Source of the DNA: Phycisphaerae bacterium
Lineage (GTDB): Bacteria > Planctomycetota > Phycisphaerae > Sedimentisphaerales > Anaerobacaceae
DNA length: 43,926 bases
Direction of reading: 5' to 3'
Assembly (NCBI GenBank): GCA_030619925.1
Contig: JAUXAL010000028.1
Coordinates: forward strand, 1-43,926
In this document: positions 15,449 through 29,011 of the stretch, piece after piece
Layout of the letters: every line of letters begins with the position of its first letter
Position numbering within the stretch: the first letter of the stretch is position 1
Made by a program: the position numbers and the translations under genes
The notes under the pieces: generated by a model
Told to the model about the DNA's origin: nothing
The model's input: only the letters and a program-made list of their open reading frames with translations
Database searches by the model: none

Positions 15449-16987
15449 ATGGCAAACTCAGAAGATAAAGGAAGAGATTCTTCGCTTTGCTCAGAAGGGC
15501 AAGGCAAGCTTGAGGCCCAAAGGCAGGAAAAACTGTCCCGTATTAGACAATTGGGTATTGAACCTTACGGCGGCAGATATGAAGGCGCAGAGCAGGCTGC
15601 GGATATCAAGCGCAGATTTAAGGACGGCGATGAAACACAACAGGCCAAATGTGCCGGCAGGATTGTGTTGTTGAGGGACATCGGGAAGCTGATTTTTGTT
15701 ACTTTGCGAGACTGGAGCGGGACTATCCAGCTCGGCCTATCGAAAAAGCTTCTGGACGAGCAGTGGCAGCTTGCCAAGTTGCTTGAGCTTGGTGATATAA
15801 TCGGCGCCGCCGGTCAATTAGGTAAAACCAAAACCGGCGAGATAACTATATGGGTTGCCAAAGACGGTCTTTGCCTTCTGAGTAAATGTTTGTGCCAACC
15901 GCCGGAGAAATTTCACGGCTTATCAGATATCGACCAGCGTTTCAGGCAGAGGTTTGTGGACTTGTGGGCCAATCCTGAAGTTATGGAGCGGTTTAAGAAG
16001 CGCAGTGCCGTCATCGCCTCGATTCGCGAATTTCTCAAATCGAAAGGTTTTTTGGAAGTTGAGACTCCGATGATGCAGACCATAGCCGGCGGGGCCGCGG
16101 CAAAGCCGTTTGTAACACACCATAACAGCCTGGACCTGGATTTATTTTTGCGGATTTCGCCGGAGCTGTTTCTAAAAAGACTGCTCGTCGGCGGAATGGA
16201 AAAGGTATTCGAGATAAACCGAAATTTCCGCAACGAAGGACTCAGCAGACAGCACAACCCGGAATTCACGATGCTCGAAGTATATCAGGCTTACGGCGAT
16301 TACAATGTGATGATGGATTTGACCGAGGAGATTATCTGGCTTTGCGTGGAAAAATACTGTACAGACAAGCACGTTCAGTTCGGCGAATTCACAGTAGATT
16401 TCAGCCGGCCCTGGCGGCGGGCCAAATACGCAGAGCTGCTGAAAGAATACAGCGGCTGCGATATTGATGACATAGAGGCCATAAGAGCCAAGGCCAAGGA
16501 ATTTGTAGGGGCGGGCACGCAGACCCGCCCAGGGCAACCACACGGGGTTGCCCCTACAAGGGCAGGTATAGATGATATGGACGATGTGGTGGTTGTCAAT
16601 GAAGTCTTTGGAGCGACCGTAGAGGACAATCTCGTCGACCCGACATTTGTGATAGATTATCCAGCGGAACTGTGTCCGTTAGCCAGACGCAGAAAAGACA
16701 ATCCCAAATTCGCAGAGCGTTTTGAGCTGTTTATCGCCCGGATGGAGCTGGCGAATGCATATACTGAGTTGAATGACCCGGCCGAACAATACGAGAATTT
16801 CCTTGTTCAGCTTCGCGGCCAGGAAGAATCGCTAACAAAGATGGACAGAAATTATTTAACGGCGTTAAAGTACGGTATGCCCCCGGCTGGTGGGCTGGGG
16901 ATTGGAATTGACAGATTGGTGATGGTGCTGACCGGTGCTTTGAGTATTCGCGAGGTAATATTATTTCCACTTTTGAAGCGGAAATAA
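15449..16987 (+). CDS. lysS: Class II lysyl-tRNA synthetase
   Basis: A 512-residue synthetase that charges tRNA-Lys. The N-terminal OB-fold anticodon domain covers about 55-150. Class II motifs: motif 1 region around FLEVETPMMQ, motif 2 at VFEINRNFRNEGLSRQHNPE, motif 3 at GLGIGIDRLVMVLTG. All expected catalytic blocks are present, so the enzyme should be active. Odd points: residues 353-370 (GAGTQTRPGQPHGVAPT) are encoded by a near-perfect double-hairpin repeat and have no counterpart in E. coli LysS, in which this helix-to-strand link is short. Residues about 9-19 also look repeat-derived. ATG 15449 has no Shine-Dalgarno sequence, so the start is the least certain part. Confidence 0.94.
   Translation: MANSEDKGRDSSLCSEGQGKLEAQRQEKLSRIRQLGIEPYGGRYEGAEQAADIKRRFKDGDETQQAKCAGRIVLLRDIGKLIFVTLRDWSGTIQLGLSKKLLDEQWQLAKLLELGDIIGAAGQLGKTKTGEITIWVAKDGLCLLSKCLCQPPEKFHGLSDIDQRFRQRFVDLWANPEVMERFKKRSAVIASIREFLKSKGFLEVETPMMQTIAGGAAAKPFVTHHNSLDLDLFLRISPELFLKRLLVGGMEKVFEINRNFRNEGLSRQHNPEFTMLEVYQAYGDYNVMMDLTEEIIWLCVEKYCTDKHVQFGEFTVDFSRPWRRAKYAELLKEYSGCDIDDIEAIRAKAKEFVGAGTQTRPGQPHGVAPTRAGIDDMDDVVVVNEVFGATVEDNLVDPTFVIDYPAELCPLARRRKDNPKFAERFELFIARMELANAYTELNDPAEQYENFLVQLRGQEESLTKMDRNYLTALKYGMPPAGGLGIGIDRLVMVLTGALSIREVILFPLLKRK
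15474..15504. repeat. TTCTTCGCTTTGCTCAGAA repeat-like segment in the 5' end of lysS
   Basis: This string resembles a widespread environmental-genome repeat whose reverse strand reads SEQSEESL in translation. Here it falls in codons 9-19 of lysS, before the conserved domain begins. Recognition is from memory of such repeats, so confidence is limited. Confidence 0.4.
16505..16557. repeat. GTAGGGGC double-hairpin palindrome in frame inside lysS
   Basis: The 53-base element is bounded by GTAGGGGC (16505-16512) and GCCCCTAC (16550-16557). Inside, GGGCGGG (16509-16515) pairs with CCCGCCC (16524-16530), and GGGCAACC (16532-16539) with GGTTGCCC (16546-16553). It can fold either as one long outer stem or as two side-by-side hairpins. 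A shorter sibling lies between genes at 23266-23295. Confidence 0.88.
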
Positions 16988-17102: not shown

Positions 17103-17537
17103 ATGGAAAGCAAAAAACCTATTAGAAGTTTTCAAGATTTGGAGGTTTATCAAACTGCTTATCAAGCAATGCTTGAGGTGTTTAGGCATGTTCTGCCAAA
17201 ACTGCCTGCAGAAGAGAAATACGATTTGCTTGATCAGCTTAGATGTTCAATCAAAGCCGTCCCTCGTTTGATAGCAGAGGGCCACTCTAAAAGGCATCAG
17301 AAAAAAGGATTTCAGAAATACCTGGATGATGCAATGGCAGAGTCTAATGAAACAATAGTTTCTTTAACCCAAGCCAAGGATCTATATTCTTCTCTGGTCG
17401 ACGTAAAAATATGTGAAAGACTAATAGATATATACGACAAGATTAGCAGGCAGTGTTATAATTTGGTAGTTGCCTGGGATAAGTTTAGTGAACGTAAATC
17501 TAGGGCGCAACCGAAAGACGGTACACGAAACGAGTAG
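17103..17537 (+). CDS. Four-helix-bundle protein (S23 / 23S rRNA intervening-sequence protein family, Avd fold)
   Basis: A 144-residue protein with the family's typical start (FQDLEVYQTAYQAMLEVFR), the central block DLLDQLRCSIKAVPRLIAEGHSKR near residues 42-65, and the second helical half SNETIVSLTQAKDLY. The fold is a four-helix bundle that forms pentamers; the Avd accessory protein of diversity-generating retroelements has the same fold. The cellular role of most members is unknown. No reverse transcriptase, template repeat or rRNA gene is nearby. Codons and spacing differ from the flanking operons, and the gene is enclosed by inverted word repeats; its last nine or so residues (RAQPKDGTRNE) are written by the downstream repeat. 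It reads as an inserted cassette between lysS and the permease genes. Confidence 0.85.
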   Translation: MESKKPIRSFQDLEVYQTAYQAMLEVFRHVLPKLPAEEKYDLLDQLRCSIKAVPRLIAEGHSKRHQKKGFQKYLDDAMAESNETIVSLTQAKDLYSSLVDVKICERLIDIYDKISRQCYNLVVAWDKFSERKSRAQPKDGTRNE

Positions 17538-22135: not shown

Positions 22136-23194
22136 ATGAGCACACGTACCGACATAACTGGTAGTATCCCACGGAGCGGGGTGCCCGCTTTTAGGCTTAT
22201 CGATGACCAGCTAAGCCGGGTGAAAGAGCTGATCGATGAGCAATTGACCGTGCCTGCTGCTCCGGGTTCGGCCGCAGGGGCAAACTCATCGGCGCGCAAG
22301 CGGTGGGCGGGGGATATTAACCGATTGCTCGAATATGTCAGTAGTCGTAGCGGCAAGATGATTCGCCCTGGGCTGGTTTTGCTTGCCGGCCGCTGCTGTG
22401 GCAAAATCACAGATGAGCACATCCGTATTGCAGCGATTGTTGAGATGATTCACAATGCCACGTTGTTGCATGATGATGTTATAGACGAAGGGCAAAGACG
22501 ACGGGGACAGCCGACGATAAATAGTCTTTGGGGTAATGAGTCCGCTGTGTTGTTAGGTGATTTTTTATTGAGCCGGGTTTTCAAAATATGTGCCGAGTTG
22601 GAACCGCAGGTAGCCGGGGTAATTGCTGCTGCCACGATTCGGATATGCGAAGGTGAGTTGAGGCAGATAGTTCAAAGGCAGAATTGGCAGTTAAGCGAAT
22701 CGGAATATGTCGACATAATCACCGAAAAAAGTGCTGCCCTTTTTAGCAGCTGCTGTTATCTTGGCGGCCTTTTGGCGCAGGGGACCGAAACGCAGGGCCA
22801 GTCGTTGGCTGTTTTTGGTTTGAATGCCGGCATTGCGTTTCAAATTACCGACGATTTGCTCGACATAGTCGGTGATGAAAGCAAAACCGGCAAAACACTC
22901 GGCAGTGATGCTGATAAAAACAAGCTGACTTTGGCCGTAATACATTTGCTAAGAGCAGTGGACGAAAAAGAAAAAAATGCGGTTATAAATTCGTATCTCG
23001 AGAGAAAAAACGCACAATATGATAAGGATGCTCTGGTGGAGACGCTGAGCCGCTATGGCAGTTTGGAATATGCGCGCAACCGGGCCCAGGAGTTTGTTGC
23101 CGGAGCGGTGCGGGCGTTGGCCGGCTTGCAAGAAAGCGATGCTAAAAAAGCCTTGATTGAAACGGCAAGATTTATGGCCAGCAGGGCGGTTTAG
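22136..23194 (+). CDS. Polyprenyl diphosphate synthase (trans-isoprenyl family)
   Basis: A 352-residue enzyme that extends isoprenoid chains for quinones or lipid carriers. The first Asp-rich motif is in LLHDDVIDEGQRRRG near residue 117, and the second is in FQITDDLLDIVGDESKTGK near residue 240. GKMIRPGLVLLAG near residue 80 matches the family's GKRLRP block. The N-terminal 65 residues contain an extra stretch (VPAAPGSAAGANSSARKRW) between helix A and helix B that I do not expect in this family. Its DNA has a short AGCGGG/CCCGCT dyad nearby (22176-22190), so a repeat origin is possible. Chain length cannot be read with confidence. Convergent with the porin gene. Confidence 0.88.
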   Translation: MSTRTDITGSIPRSGVPAFRLIDDQLSRVKELIDEQLTVPAAPGSAAGANSSARKRWAGDINRLLEYVSSRSGKMIRPGLVLLAGRCCGKITDEHIRIAAIVEMIHNATLLHDDVIDEGQRRRGQPTINSLWGNESAVLLGDFLLSRVFKICAELEPQVAGVIAAATIRICEGELRQIVQRQNWQLSESEYVDIITEKSAALFSSCCYLGGLLAQGTETQGQSLAVFGLNAGIAFQITDDLLDIVGDESKTGKTLGSDADKNKLTLAVIHLLRAVDEKEKNAVINSYLERKNAQYDKDALVETLSRYGSLEYARNRAQEFVAGAVRALAGLQESDAKKALIETARFMASRAV

Positions 23195-23265: not shown

Positions 23266-23295
23266 GTAGGGGCAACCCTTCGTGGTTGCCCCTAC
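23266..23295. repeat. Perfect GTAGGGGCAACC palindrome between genes
   Basis: GTAGGGGCAACC (23266-23277) and GGTTGCCCCTAC (23284-23295) are perfect 12-bp arms with the loop CTTCGT. It has the same outer arms and right-hand hairpin sequence as the element inside lysS at 16505-16557, lacking that element's left hairpin. Confidence 0.88.
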
Positions 23296-23363: not shown

Positions 23364-24182
23364 TTAGAATTTGTACGACAGACCCAGGCCAATCCACCAT
23401 TCGTCCGACTCATTAACCGTGTCATCCATTGATGCCTGATAGTAAAGTGCCGGGACAAAGGCGACGTTTTCGGTGAGGTCGAACTCTGTTGAGACGCCAA
23501 GAACAGCGTGTGACCAGTCTTGGTCTGCCCCGAGAACGCCATCGTTGTAGGTCATATCTGCAGATAGATGGAGGGTCTGTTCGGGGATTTCCGGCAGCGG
23601 GCCCGGTACCGTCAAGTCATAATCAAGTCCGACGACATGTAGCCACCCACCAACGGTACGGTCGATAAGTGAAAGGGCTTGATTCGAGAGGGCATTGCTT
23701 TCGGACGGCCACAGACAAATGATGGTATAGCTGGGGACGACGCCAAGGGGGCATATCTCCGGCAAGGAAAGCGATGCGAAGAATTCCTGCATATCCGCAA
23801 CGTTGCTGGAATTATCCGGCAAGTTATAGTAGACCCAGCCCACCGTATAGTCAGTGGCGTAAGTTTCGCCTTCGAAGAGACTGTTGCCGTAGTATAAAGT
23901 CAAGTCCAGCCTCTCCAGATCTTGGAATGGGACACCCTCCACATTTCCGCTTTTGTTGGCCCTTGTGCTAAGAACATTCAAGCCAAATCCTGTGTCGTAC
24001 AAGTCAAGGTCGATGCCCAATTGAAGTGCGCTGTGGTTATTCTCGAACCAGTCATAACCTCGCCAAATATAACTGCTTAAGAAGGTTAGGTCGACAGTTC
24101 CGCTCAACTCGCCTTCCTGGGCCTGGGCAAAGCCCGCTGCGCTCAACAAGATTACGGCAGCTAACAAAATTCCTTTCTTCAT
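23364..24182 (-). CDS. Predicted outer-membrane porin-like protein
   Basis: A 272-residue exported protein. The signal peptide is MKKGILLAAVILLSAAGFAQA. The mature part is beta-strand-like with alternating aromatic residues and ends in LGLSYKF, a C-terminal Phe as in many outer-membrane barrels. The N-terminal SSYIWRGYDWFENN block resembles TorF-type putative porins. The start is taken as ATG 24182 because GGAG lies six bases upstream; an upstream TTG (24197) and ATG (24188) are open in the same frame but fit the ribosome site less well. Substrate is unknown. Confidence 0.72.
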   Translation of the reverse strand: MKKGILLAAVILLSAAGFAQAQEGELSGTVDLTFLSSYIWRGYDWFENNHSALQLGIDLDLYDTGFGLNVLSTRANKSGNVEGVPFQDLERLDLTLYYGNSLFEGETYATDYTVGWVYYNLPDNSSNVADMQEFFASLSLPEICPLGVVPSYTIICLWPSESNALSNQALSLIDRTVGGWLHVVGLDYDLTVPGPLPEIPEQTLHLSADMTYNDGVLGADQDWSHAVLGVSTEFDLTENVAFVPALYYQASMDDTVNESDEWWIGLGLSYKF

Positions 24183-24406
24183 GTTCATCTCCTTCAAAAA
24201 TCTCTCTACCTAAAACTTACTTCACACGCTACACAAAATTTTCTCTCCGATATAACGTTAAACCACCCACCTGCCACCTGGAGAGTTTATCGGTATGTGG
24301 CTACAAATCAAATGAAAAAAAAAGTTTTTTTTGGATTTTTTTGCGTGGGCTGTGGCGCCGAACCGGGGGCGAAAGGCTGGTATAAAAACCCTCAGAAATT
24401 AAATTT

Positions 24407-26448: not shown

Positions 26449-27576
26449 ATGGCTCGTTATCCTCGCAGCTCGCAAGGTAGGCGAAGAGATAGAACCCGAA
26501 GCTGGGCATATACCATTTTGGCTTTGCTTATTACTGCCGTGATAATTGCTTTTATTTATGGCCCTGGTCCTTTCGGCAGAAACAAAGGCGATACTGTTGA
26601 GATTCTACCTGAGGCCGATGTGCCGGAAGCGACCGAAACAGGATTGTATTCGGTTACCGAGCCGGAGCCACGGTTGGAGCCGGAGCCACAGTTGGAGACG
26701 GAGCCACGGTTAGAGCCGGAGCCACAGTTAGAGCCGGAGCCACAATTGGAGCCGGAGCCTGTGCTGGAACCGAATTTGCCAAAAATTGAGCTGGAACCGG
26801 CTGTTGAACCTAATCCCGAGGCGGCCAAGCTAATTGCCGAAGCCATGGCGGTGCTCGGCGAAAAGCCCAGCAGGATTATAGATGCACGTGAGAGGTTAAA
26901 CGAGGCACTGCGAATACCCATGAGCGGCCAACAGCGAGCATTTGTGAAGGACCAGCTCTCCGAGCTTGCGGATCAATGGCTGTTTAGCAGACGATTTTTC
27001 CCCCAGGACAGGCTTTGTGAGAGTTTACAGGTCAAGCCGGGCGATCAACTCAGAAGAATCGGCGAGCGATATAAGGTGCCGTACGAGATTCTTATGGAGA
27101 TTAACAATATCAGCCGTCCCGAAGGCCTGAGAGCGGGAGAGAGGATAAAGGTCATTAACGGCCCGTTCCATGCGAAGGTATATCTTTCAGCTTTTACGAT
27201 GGATTTGTATCTTCAGAACACTTTCGTTCGAAGTTTTCCTGTGGGTCTGGGCAAGCCTGGTATGGAGACACCGACAGGACTTTGGCGTGTCAAAGAGGGG
27301 GGAAAGCTGATGAAGCCGGTCTGGACGGATCCAATTACTGGTAAAACATATTACCCTGAAGACCCGGATTATCCTTTAGGCTCGAGATGGATAGGACTGG
27401 ACGGTATTGAGGGGGGGGCCGAAGGCAGGACCGGCTTTGCCATTCACGGCACAAAGGACCCAGACGAAATAGGGACCGCAGGTTCACAAGGGTGTATCCG
27501 CCTGCATAACGGTGATGTGATATTGGCCTATAAGTTGTTGGCGCCGATTCATTCCTTAGTCAGGGTCGAAGAATAA
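26449..27576 (+). CDS. LysM and L,D-transpeptidase (YkuD) protein with Pro/Glu repeat stalk
   Basis: A 375-residue envelope enzyme. A signal anchor lies near residues 21-40 (TILALLITAVIIAFIYG). Residues 71-106 are six copies of the hexapeptide EPEPxL, a stiff acidic stalk. A LysM-like domain follows (CESLQVKPGDQLRRIGERY, near residues 188-235), then the YkuD domain from about 240. The catalytic block is FAIHGT...GSQGCIRL, with the active Cys near residue 350. These enzymes form 3-3 cross-links in peptidoglycan or anchor proteins to it. AAAGGAG supports the start. The 3' end overlaps the convergent methyltransferase gene by 17 bases. Confidence 0.9.
   Translation: MARYPRSSQGRRRDRTRSWAYTILALLITAVIIAFIYGPGPFGRNKGDTVEILPEADVPEATETGLYSVTEPEPRLEPEPQLETEPRLEPEPQLEPEPQLEPEPVLEPNLPKIELEPAVEPNPEAAKLIAEAMAVLGEKPSRIIDARERLNEALRIPMSGQQRAFVKDQLSELADQWLFSRRFFPQDRLCESLQVKPGDQLRRIGERYKVPYEILMEINNISRPEGLRAGERIKVINGPFHAKVYLSAFTMDLYLQNTFVRSFPVGLGKPGMETPTGLWRVKEGGKLMKPVWTDPITGKTYYPEDPDYPLGSRWIGLDGIEGGAEGRTGFAIHGTKDPDEIGTAGSQGCIRLHNGDVILAYKLLAPIHSLVRVEE
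26659..26766 (+). repeat. Six tandem copies of an 18-bp coding repeat
   Basis: The unit GAGCCGGAGCCACRGTTR (six codons, EPEPxL) occurs six times without gaps inside the L,D-transpeptidase gene. Copies differ by one to four bases. Copy number probably varies between strains. Confidence 0.9.
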
Positions 27577-28570
27577 AATAAGGGATGTTTTTTGGCTGTA
27601 TAGATGAATCAATAGACGGCTTCTTTATCTTTTGTTTCTGCGCGTTGAGTGTGTTTCTTTCCCAGAATACGCCCTGGTGGTATCCCTGAATTGTTGTATC
27701 AAGCTGGGCTAAGTGCAGGCGTTTTGCAGCGAGCAGGCAGTATTCTTTTTCGATTTCAACTCCGAGGAATCTGCGATTCAGCTTTTTAGCCGCTACGAGA
27801 CTGCTTCCAACGCCCATAAAAGGGTCAAAAACCAAGTCGTTTTCATTTGTGCTTGCCAGAATTAATTTCGCTAACAGTTTTTCCGGTTTCTGTGTAGGGT
27901 GGTCGGTGTTCTCCGGCATCGACCAGAAGGGCACTGTAATATCGTTCCACAAATTTGACGGATGTGTCAGGCGGAATTGGCCGTCAGATGAAGCCTGCCA
28001 GTCTTTTGGTGCACCATTGGTATCAGTGTAAGGGGCCAGGACTTTGCGCTTGAGCTTTACGTCGGCTATATTGAATACATAATCATCTGAAACAGTGGCG
28101 AACCAAATATCTTCCGAAGCATTCTTCCAGTTTCTTTTTGCGCCCCTGCCTTTTTCCCTCTCCCAGGTGATCCGATTTCTTACCTTCAAGTGCTTTTCTA
28201 AAACAAGGTGGACTGCTGTTGACGAATGCCATTCAGAGCATACATAGACCGACGCGGTACTCTTAAGTGTCGGCAGCAACTTAACCAGCAGGTTCTCAAA
28301 CCACTCGGCGTATTTTGCGATGCCCTTTTTCCTGAAGGTAGTCGAGTCGAAGGTCTTGGTAAGATTATAAGGCGGGTCCAATATCAGCAAATCAGCGAAG
28401 CTATTCGGCAAAAAACCAAGTACCTGGAAAATGTCCTGGTTTACTATTTTGTTTTCGATAGTATTTATATATGCAGCTTTGGAAATGCGAATCGGATTCT
28501 TGCTGTAAAATTCTTTTTCTGCCGGGCTGAGCGTTATCGTCCGATTTCTGTGTGCGCGAGCCTTATCCAT
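27560..28570 (-). CDS. DNA methyltransferase (N6-adenine/N4-cytosine, beta class), no restriction partner
   Basis: A 336-residue methyltransferase. Catalytic motif IV DPPYN is at residues 65-69 and the SAM-binding motif I (LVFDPFMGVGSSLVAA) is near 245-260. The order IV before I marks the beta class. HPTQKPEKLLAKLI before motif I is also typical. DPPY fits N6-adenine methylation, though N4-cytosine cannot be excluded. A GCGGAGG Shine-Dalgarno sequence precedes ATG 28570. No endonuclease gene is adjacent, so it is orphan within this window, as in regulatory methylases of the CcrM/YhdJ kind. Its 3' end overlaps the L,D-transpeptidase gene by 17 bases. Confidence 0.88.
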   Translation of the reverse strand: MDKARAHRNRTITLSPAEKEFYSKNPIRISKAAYINTIENKIVNQDIFQVLGFLPNSFADLLILDPPYNLTKTFDSTTFRKKGIAKYAEWFENLLVKLLPTLKSTASVYVCSEWHSSTAVHLVLEKHLKVRNRITWEREKGRGAKRNWKNASEDIWFATVSDDYVFNIADVKLKRKVLAPYTDTNGAPKDWQASSDGQFRLTHPSNLWNDITVPFWSMPENTDHPTQKPEKLLAKLILASTNENDLVFDPFMGVGSSLVAAKKLNRRFLGVEIEKEYCLLAAKRLHLAQLDTTIQGYHQGVFWERNTLNAQKQKIKKPSIDSSIQPKNIPYFILRP

Positions 28571-28652
28571 ATGTCCTCCGCAATTTCCCCTTTAAGTGGC
28601 ATCATTTCTTCGCTATTGGATAATTCTTTCTACCCTCCCTGGAAAATGACCT

Positions 28653-28970
28653 TCATGCGGCATATATTTCTCTTCCTTCTTGTAGTACAGTTCGATAAAT
28701 TAAGCCGATATTATCTTTATGCTTTTCTAAAACACTTGGTGTTGCCACTAAAATATCAAAAGGAACCCCTAACCCTCTAATTTGCCGATACAATAGTTGT
28801 GCAGTCCGTCGGCAATGAATACCTTCGGGCATCACTACCAGGACATCAATGTCGCTCTCTGCATCCGCTTTGTCTCGAGCAGATGAACCAAAAAGAATTA
28901 TCTTTAGCGGATGTACAACTTCGACGATGCTTTGTACAAGTGGTTCAATCGCTTTAGAATTAGGCAGCAT
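28653..28970 (-). CDS. Minimal nucleotidyltransferase (MNT/NTP_transf_2), without HEPN partner
   Basis: A 105-residue protein with the polymerase-beta-type motif GSSARDKADAESDIDVLVV near residues 27-45, where the GS and DxD residues bind nucleotide and metal. A third acidic residue near FDILVA is present. MNT proteins often act as antitoxins that AMPylate HEPN ribonucleases. The HEPN gene is expected next to it, but the 80 bases before the methyltransferase gene contain only a short ATGA-overlapping frame of eight codons (MKVIFQGG). The start is set at ATG 28970 with GAGGT just upstream. Function as a solitary enzyme is open. Confidence 0.75.
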   Translation of the reverse strand: MLPNSKAIEPLVQSIVEVVHPLKIILFGSSARDKADAESDIDVLVVMPEGIHCRRTAQLLYRQIRGLGVPFDILVATPSVLEKHKDNIGLIYRTVLQEGREIYAA

Positions 28971-29011
28971 ATCTAACCTCAATTTTACTCACCTGGCCAT
29001 TTCAGTCAATT

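Follow-up and report, generated by a model that had tools for sequence, protein, structure and literature searches.

A putative head-to-head dimer of GTAG REPs inserted in frame in the lysyl-tRNA synthetase gene of a Phycisphaerae bacterium

Introduction

Rickettsia palindromic elements are palindromic repeats that are inserted in frame in housekeeping enzymes. GTAG REPs, which include members in the PVC superphylum, are described in the available parts of the survey by Di Nocera, De Gregorio and Rocco (2013, PMC3733652) as a terminal GTAG next to a stem-loop, with a stem of 5-13 bp and a loop of 2-20 nt; they are dispersed and multi-copy, have alternative complementary stem residues, and frequently form head-to-head dimers. 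According to the same text, more than half of the in-frame REPs are dimers or groups, coding for 20-30 residues, and their hosts include tRNA synthetases of X. oryzae, E. litoralis and S. alaskensis, while the intragenic repeats RPE-4 and RPE-6 of R. conorii are counted there among the CGTC elements (PMC3733652).

A REP that flanks a RAYT gene of the same genome is, in the portions of the literature at hand, usual and not universal. For TnpAREP subclass 2.4, the available text of Quentin et al. (2018, PMC6006769) describes REPs with a stem foot of three consecutive G-C pairs, 'double foot' variants, and REPs lying in frame in the transposase gene between HuH and Y, the protein motifs being NH[IFV]H, WQ and YIxNNP. 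Here, we describe a palindrome translated as part of lysyl-tRNA synthetase (LysS) and compare it with these systems.

Results

The window, by which we mean the whole 43,926-base stretch of DNA that was analysed, belongs to a genome of 4.02 Mb in 141 contigs that is 92.8% complete (G000; the labels G, L and C stand for genome, locus and contig, and the family set comprises 61 genomes). It contains the following features:

15449..16987, + strand: lysS, lysyl-tRNA synthetase, 512 aa (open reading frame; TIGR00499 and NF001756 above cut-off; PF00152)
16505..16557, + strand: very likely a head-to-head dimer of GTAG REPs, in frame (from sequence, fold and covariance model)
16505..16530, + strand: putative REP unit 1, with GTAG at 16505-16508, a 7-bp stem at 16509-16515/16524-16530 (GGGCGGG/CCCGCCC) and an 8-nt loop at 16516-16523
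16532..16557, - strand: putative REP unit 2, with its foot at 16554-16557 (CTAC on the + strand), an 8-bp stem at 16532-16539/16546-16553 and a 6-nt loop at 16540-16545
23266..23295, no strand assigned: second copy, a putative 'double-foot' REP (GTAG at both ends), between the converging ORFs 22136-23194 (+) and 23364-24197 (-)

The 512-aa frame scored 534.8 bits against TIGR00499 and 589 bits against NF001756, both of them lysine--tRNA ligase models and both above cut-off, and the insert falls inside the span of PF00152 (residues 162-508). The original prediction had placed at 16505..16557 a 53-base double hairpin with perfect ends, translated in frame between two conserved blocks of LysS, and we found it present as described: both hairpins lie inside the open frame, where the insert forms residues 353-370 (approximately 18 amino acids), with the peptide VGAGTQTRPGQPHGVAPTR. 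The predicted tryptic peptide covering the insert is EFVGAGTQTRPGQPHGVAPTR. On both sides of the insert LysS is colinear and open, and its best match, with 85% identity, is in the same family. The site was placed by sequence alignment to LysRS 3a74 only, at approximately residues 344-351, between AREL/AKEHGV and FGHIVNEFFE, and an alignment-free AlphaFold model (mean pLDDT 33.7) was set aside. In that alignment, the site would be a loop between helices that tolerates extra residues; the modified LysS is presumably still functional, and the insert peptide would be neutral. Directly after lysS, a 144-aa ORF at 17103-17537 presumably resembles the small four-helix-bundle proteins of the 23S rRNA intervening-sequence type, and at 27560-28982 (-) lies what we take to be a DNA methyltransferase-like ORF adjoining a minimal nucleotidyltransferase-like ORF.

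The 53-nt element consists of two 26-nt units, each made of GTAG and a stem-loop, in inverted orientation and 1 base (A) apart, and has perfect 8-nt ends, GTAGGGGC/GCCCCTAC, which occur exactly twice each in the window, at 16505/16550 and 23266/23288. Folded as ssDNA with DNA parameters, it is predicted to form two hairpins (-18.3 kcal/mol, z -4.2) that leave the outer GTAG and CTAC unpaired, and 0 of 200 dinucleotide shuffles folded as stably. Both units begin GGGC/GCCC, so that the foot of each stem has three G-C pairs in a row, and their stems (7 and 8 bp) and loops (8 and 6 nt) are inside the published GTAG REP ranges. The left unit (unit 1) is the most diverged, having one broken stem pair and a different loop, and fails the strict genome pattern. 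The recurrence of the outer arms and the right-hand hairpin at 23266-23295, also proposed originally, holds for the arms and for the right-hand stem (GGGCAACC/GGTTGCCC), which are identical to those of the LysS dimer; the loop differs.

Across the whole genome G000, the pattern GTAGGGGCNNNCN{2,14}GNNNGCCC gave 27 matches at 23 places on 19 contigs, all of them 26 nt long though the spacer allowed 12-nt variation, and its backward control gave 0 matches, so the copy number of the unit is far beyond chance. A covariance model trained on five dimers, whose own copies match by construction, gave at least 58 matches on both strands, at 30 or more places at E<=1 and 17 or more at E<=0.001 (150 of 819 candidates scored). 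The sequence is thus dispersed rather than unique in the genome, in keeping with the earlier view of it as a mobile or multiplying repeat. In a strict scan, the 23 places resolved into seven dimers of 53-55 nt (in lysS and on C1, C15, C41, C54, C84 and C101), two symmetric, double-foot 30-bp forms and 14 single units, beside some of which lies a decayed partner. A symmetric 28-bp form, GTAGGGGCGGTTCGCGAACCGCCCCTAC, is present at seven places, five copies being identical and two having a change. In three copies (L070, L080 and L087, on C15, C41 and C84), the flanks beyond the REPs are common to all three, indicating that a larger repeat holding the REP dimer was itself duplicated.

Among 24 distinct units (the left LysS unit and the 23 pattern strings), pairing holds in 97.4% of stem cells. 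Changes of both partners affect 23 cells, whereas shuffles gave 7.4 and 0 of 500 were as high; when partners were slid by 1-3 columns, pairing fell to 28-56%. This covariation evidence, which concerns the upper stem, rests on three of the eight pairs, because the search pattern largely fixed the other five, and the genome-wide invariance of the G-C foot was set by that pattern and adds no evidence. Direct flank repeats of at least 2 nt were present at 1 of the 23 places and of at least 4 nt at 0, against 1.5 expected from permuted flanks; they are at chance level, and there is therefore no sign of target duplication.

To place the insertion among relatives, we collected 43 LysS loci, the window's own included, from 42 of the 61 family genomes. 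Partial or split loci (L055, L059, L060 and L061) were left out and 39 were aligned; as L057 is without residues at the site, 37 of the 38 others cover it. No insert was present at the site in 36 of these 37, and the single exception (L020, in G021) has an unrelated 25-aa low-complexity insert there, so that the alignment called for by the original prediction yielded no conserved peptide and the LysS insert is a lineage-specific in-frame insertion. Its net change amounts to +18 codons (+54 nt) for a 53-nt element.

Several LysS relatives (L020, L054, L056 and L037) have repeat-like in-frame inserts at several places, one of them exactly at the window's site. In G021, LysS carries a short TTCCTGC..GCAGGAA palindrome in frame at another place; in G020 and G005, it has in-frame ACAGAAG runs away from the window's insert site, and in G009 an in-frame CCGCAGAG-type stretch elsewhere in the protein.

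Open frames were listed at 37 G000 loci (pattern, covariance-model and symmetric-form places, which overlap, a few places not being re-found), and Pfam was run on ten of the frames. Besides LysS, two enzymes of G000 contain a REP unit bordered on either side by homologous sequence: a PabB/TrpE-type synthase (L074), with one unit in frame giving the peptide QGNHIGLPLRG, and TrmB (L092; TIGR00091 above cut-off), with one unit in frame giving VGAGQCACP. For each enzyme 29 relatives were aligned, drawn from the 45 genomes that matched TrmB and the 50 that matched PabB/TrpE, and among them no clear REP unit was found in TrmB or PabB except in G023, of a sister genus. In that genome, two units in tandem occupy the PabB position and frame of the G000 unit, the corresponding TrmB position holds 26 nt readable as a decayed unit (6 of 8 stem pairs, tag GTAC), and LysS has no insert. 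Judging from these alignments, the PabB and TrmB insertions are probably older than the split from G023, and since the LysS insert is not shared, it would be the youngest of the three. The 26-nt unit accounts for a net length of about +12 nt in PabB and +15 nt in TrmB; the net lengths in all three enzymes differ from the element lengths, so that gain or loss of nearby bases accompanied the insertions and a clean rule of insertion cannot be read from them.

In-frame extra sequence recurs at one PabB/TrpE-type site (L074 in G000, L324 in G023, and L316, L325 and L326). At this site, G013, G003 and G019 have DSRLRGNDK- or EILRCAQND-type peptides instead of REP units, and we take peptides of both types to be translated repeats. 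A fourth intragenic copy may be present at L051, where an open 772-aa frame that Pfam did not match at 1e-5 has a 28-bp palindrome at residue 500, and L341, a 618-aa frame without a Pfam match, is unproven as an intragenic REP host. Many other overlaps concern frames that are short or on the opposite strand, or that extend the N terminus upstream of a gene. A second place approximately 5.6 kb downstream of TrmB (C125:13691-13786 of G000) matches its C-terminal 32 codons with 88% identity.

In the 61 family genomes, the REP pattern gave 446 matches against 37 for the backward pattern (symmetric copies counted twice), with a patchy distribution in which 44 genomes have 0 to 2 matches and G024, G460, G023 and G000 have 113, 66, 48 and 27, respectively. 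Family genomes with a RAYT match have more pattern matches (Mann-Whitney p 0.0004), and at least five were present in 8 of the 13 genomes with a RAYT match and in 8 of the 48 without (Fisher p 0.003); eight of the 16 family genomes with at least five matches, G000 included, thus have no RAYT match. A phylum sample had one or more matches in 223 of 392 genomes, and as backward matches are equally common in many of these, only high counts are meaningful.

The 13 genomes above came from a protein search over the family with the RAYT of G015, whose gene contains REPs of this type and is flanked by them on both sides; two of the 13 matched by fragments only. The relatives' RAYT genes carry NHxH, WQRN and YxxxNP motifs. 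We read 16 of them, 14 from the family and two from outside (G396 and G425), four having been picked because REPs lay there (G015, G396, G425 and the gene on C48 of G466); in 14 of the 16, a tagged hairpin lies in frame between HUH and Y, some frames being stop-broken, with a changed tag in two (G444 and C40 of G024), and no tagged hairpin was found in this interval in G007 and one G024 gene. At L227 and L248, the 28-bp symmetric form lies in frame inside the RAYT gene. In G009, the internal RAYT peptide, VGAAPSGRP...GQPHRVAPT, uses the same two reading frames as the LysS insert VGAGTQTRPGQPHGVAPTR.

From at least 481 relatives in many phyla, 80 named RAYT loci were kept, 79 with the HUH motif. 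Among these 79, a GTAG-tagged hairpin was present between HUH and WQR in 63 and absent from that interval in 16, against 0.33 loci with an interval hairpin in codon shuffles; it was found anywhere in the frame in 66 and in the flanks in 42. Among the named loci kept, tagged hairpins numbered 113 in 15,904 interval bases, 2 in 18,336 bases before and 0 in 9,198 after, and the internal arm equalled the flanking REP arm in 20 of the 30 loci having both (2000 permuted pairings: mean 2.06, maximum 7). A REP inside a RAYT frame is a re-found feature, already published for subclass 2.4 in the available text (PMC6006769). The relatives' RAYTs fit this subclass broadly, on the published motifs rather than the authors' HMM.

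In G000 itself (93% complete), the protein search with the G015 RAYT gave 0 matches at E<=1e-5 for a RAYT of this REP's type; the window's REP was found flanking RAYT genes in relatives (e.g. G015, G023 and G466) and none in its own genome. As no such RAYT was found in G000, the mobiliser is one that we infer.

PF01797 identified four Y1 transposase genes in G000, on C9, C33, C50 and C75, each of which was rejected as the cognate gene. The C33 RAYT is surrounded by a different GTAG REP, GTAGGGTGGGGCTTGCCCCACC; its gene (L181, 411-1241; NF047646, 188.6 bits) lies amid four units of GTAGGGTGGGGCTTGCCCCACC or a close variant. Hairpins adjoining the C9 and C75 genes (L011 and L012) are tagged GTTAG, not GTAG, and beside the C50 gene no hairpin could be tagged.

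Discussion

We have little doubt that the LysS palindrome is made up of two GTAG REPs arranged head to head, and that these belong to the type associated with TnpAREP/RAYT subclass 2.4. The palindrome would be a non-autonomous mobile element whose GTAG foot a Y1 HUH enzyme of this subclass would recognise in ssDNA, the REPs being copied or moved in trans. One dimer would have entered lysS between two conserved blocks, at a permissive site and in a stop-free frame, and selection would have kept stop-free frames with a whole-codon net change. That the mobiliser is an ssDNA HUH transposase recognising GTAG at the hairpin foot and acting in trans is somewhat more probable than other possibilities, and we strongly favour the explanation as a whole, comprising REP-dimer identity, mobiliser and in-frame entry into lysS.

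It is improbable that the insertion is adaptive, with the peptide or an mRNA hairpin altering LysS activity or expression. Such a reading would suit an essential enzyme whose frame is intact and whose predicted hairpins are stable (with DNA parameters), and altered function was speculated for repair enzymes in the available text of Di Nocera et al. (PMC3733652). However, the insert peptide is simply the repeat in translation, and the LysS and PabB sites in other family genera hold unrelated repeat-like inserts, which points to tolerance and not to a selected peptide. These unrelated repeats suggest that site permissiveness, rather than peptide function, decides retention.

We give still less credence to the view that the palindrome is a MITE mobilised by an ordinary DDE insertion sequence and not a REP mobilised by a Y1 HUH enzyme. 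The fully symmetric copies (28-bp at seven places, 30-bp at two) do resemble tiny inverted-repeat elements, and a cognate RAYT was not found in G000, which is a point for this alternative; against it, there is no target-site duplication at the 23 places, the tag, stem and loop sizes fit GTAG REPs, REPs border RAYT genes in relatives, and symmetric forms are published as 'double foot' REPs of subclass 2.4 in the available text (PMC6006769), the 28-bp form lying inside RAYT frames. Although the assembly is in 141 contigs and 92.8% complete, a chimeric contig or spurious repeat junction from assembly or binning is barely credible, as the unit is present on 19 contigs and LysS is colinear and open on both sides with its best match (85% identity) in the same family.

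On the REP-dimer reading, a stray palindrome of an essential enzyme is connected with an established class of transposases. REP-coded residues are present in three enzymes of one genome, two of which probably have the insertion in common with a sister genus while the third does not, so that the age and tolerance of such insertions become comparable. As a warning for annotation, translated repeats can account for peptides like VGAG..RP and GQPHGVAPT in predicted proteins. A more doubtful proposal is that REPs carried in the frame of their own transposase are mobile copies filtered for translatability, and would give more in-frame host peptides than other repeats; together with other repeats hitting the same loops, they would form a regular source of new loops in the housekeeping enzymes of this lineage.

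The LysS dimer consists of two inverted REPs, which is reportedly also the arrangement of the mobile units named REPINs by Bertels and Rainey in 2011; those of Pseudomonas are said to have a spacer longer than the 1 nt of the LysS dimer. The likeness to Rickettsia palindromic elements suggested in the original prediction stands as an analogy of in-frame behaviour, whereas membership is not supported by the tag, which is GTAG and not CGTC. This comparison was made by tag for RPE-4 and RPE-6 and by description for RPE-1: the intragenic repeats of R. conorii are, in the available text, CGTC elements or the longer RPE-1 (PMC3733652), whereas the LysS element is GTAG-tagged and of a kind that goes with RAYT genes. 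The hint that such behaviour is undescribed does not survive, as GTAG REPs of the PVC superphylum and in-frame REP dimers were published in 2013, in the text available to us (PMC3733652). On the LysS case itself or the repeat's letters (GTAGGGGC), nothing relevant was found among the literature matches listed.

Compared with subclass 2.4 in the available text (PMC6006769), the relatives' RAYTs also have C, M and L at the middle position of the published motif, and G000 has REPs whereas no such transposase gene was found in it; the G-C stem foot and the double-foot copies are shared, and REPs lie in frame inside RAYT genes of relatives. There is also a close resemblance to the GTAG REPs, as far as the available text describes them (PMC3733652): although the string GTAGGGG is absent from its main text, the GTAG foot, the stem and loop sizes, the dimers of two unlike units 1 nt apart, the location of most copies outside recognised genes with some in frame, and a tRNA synthetase as host are all in common. 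The LysS insertion is a clear example of a documented phenomenon, not a new kind of element.
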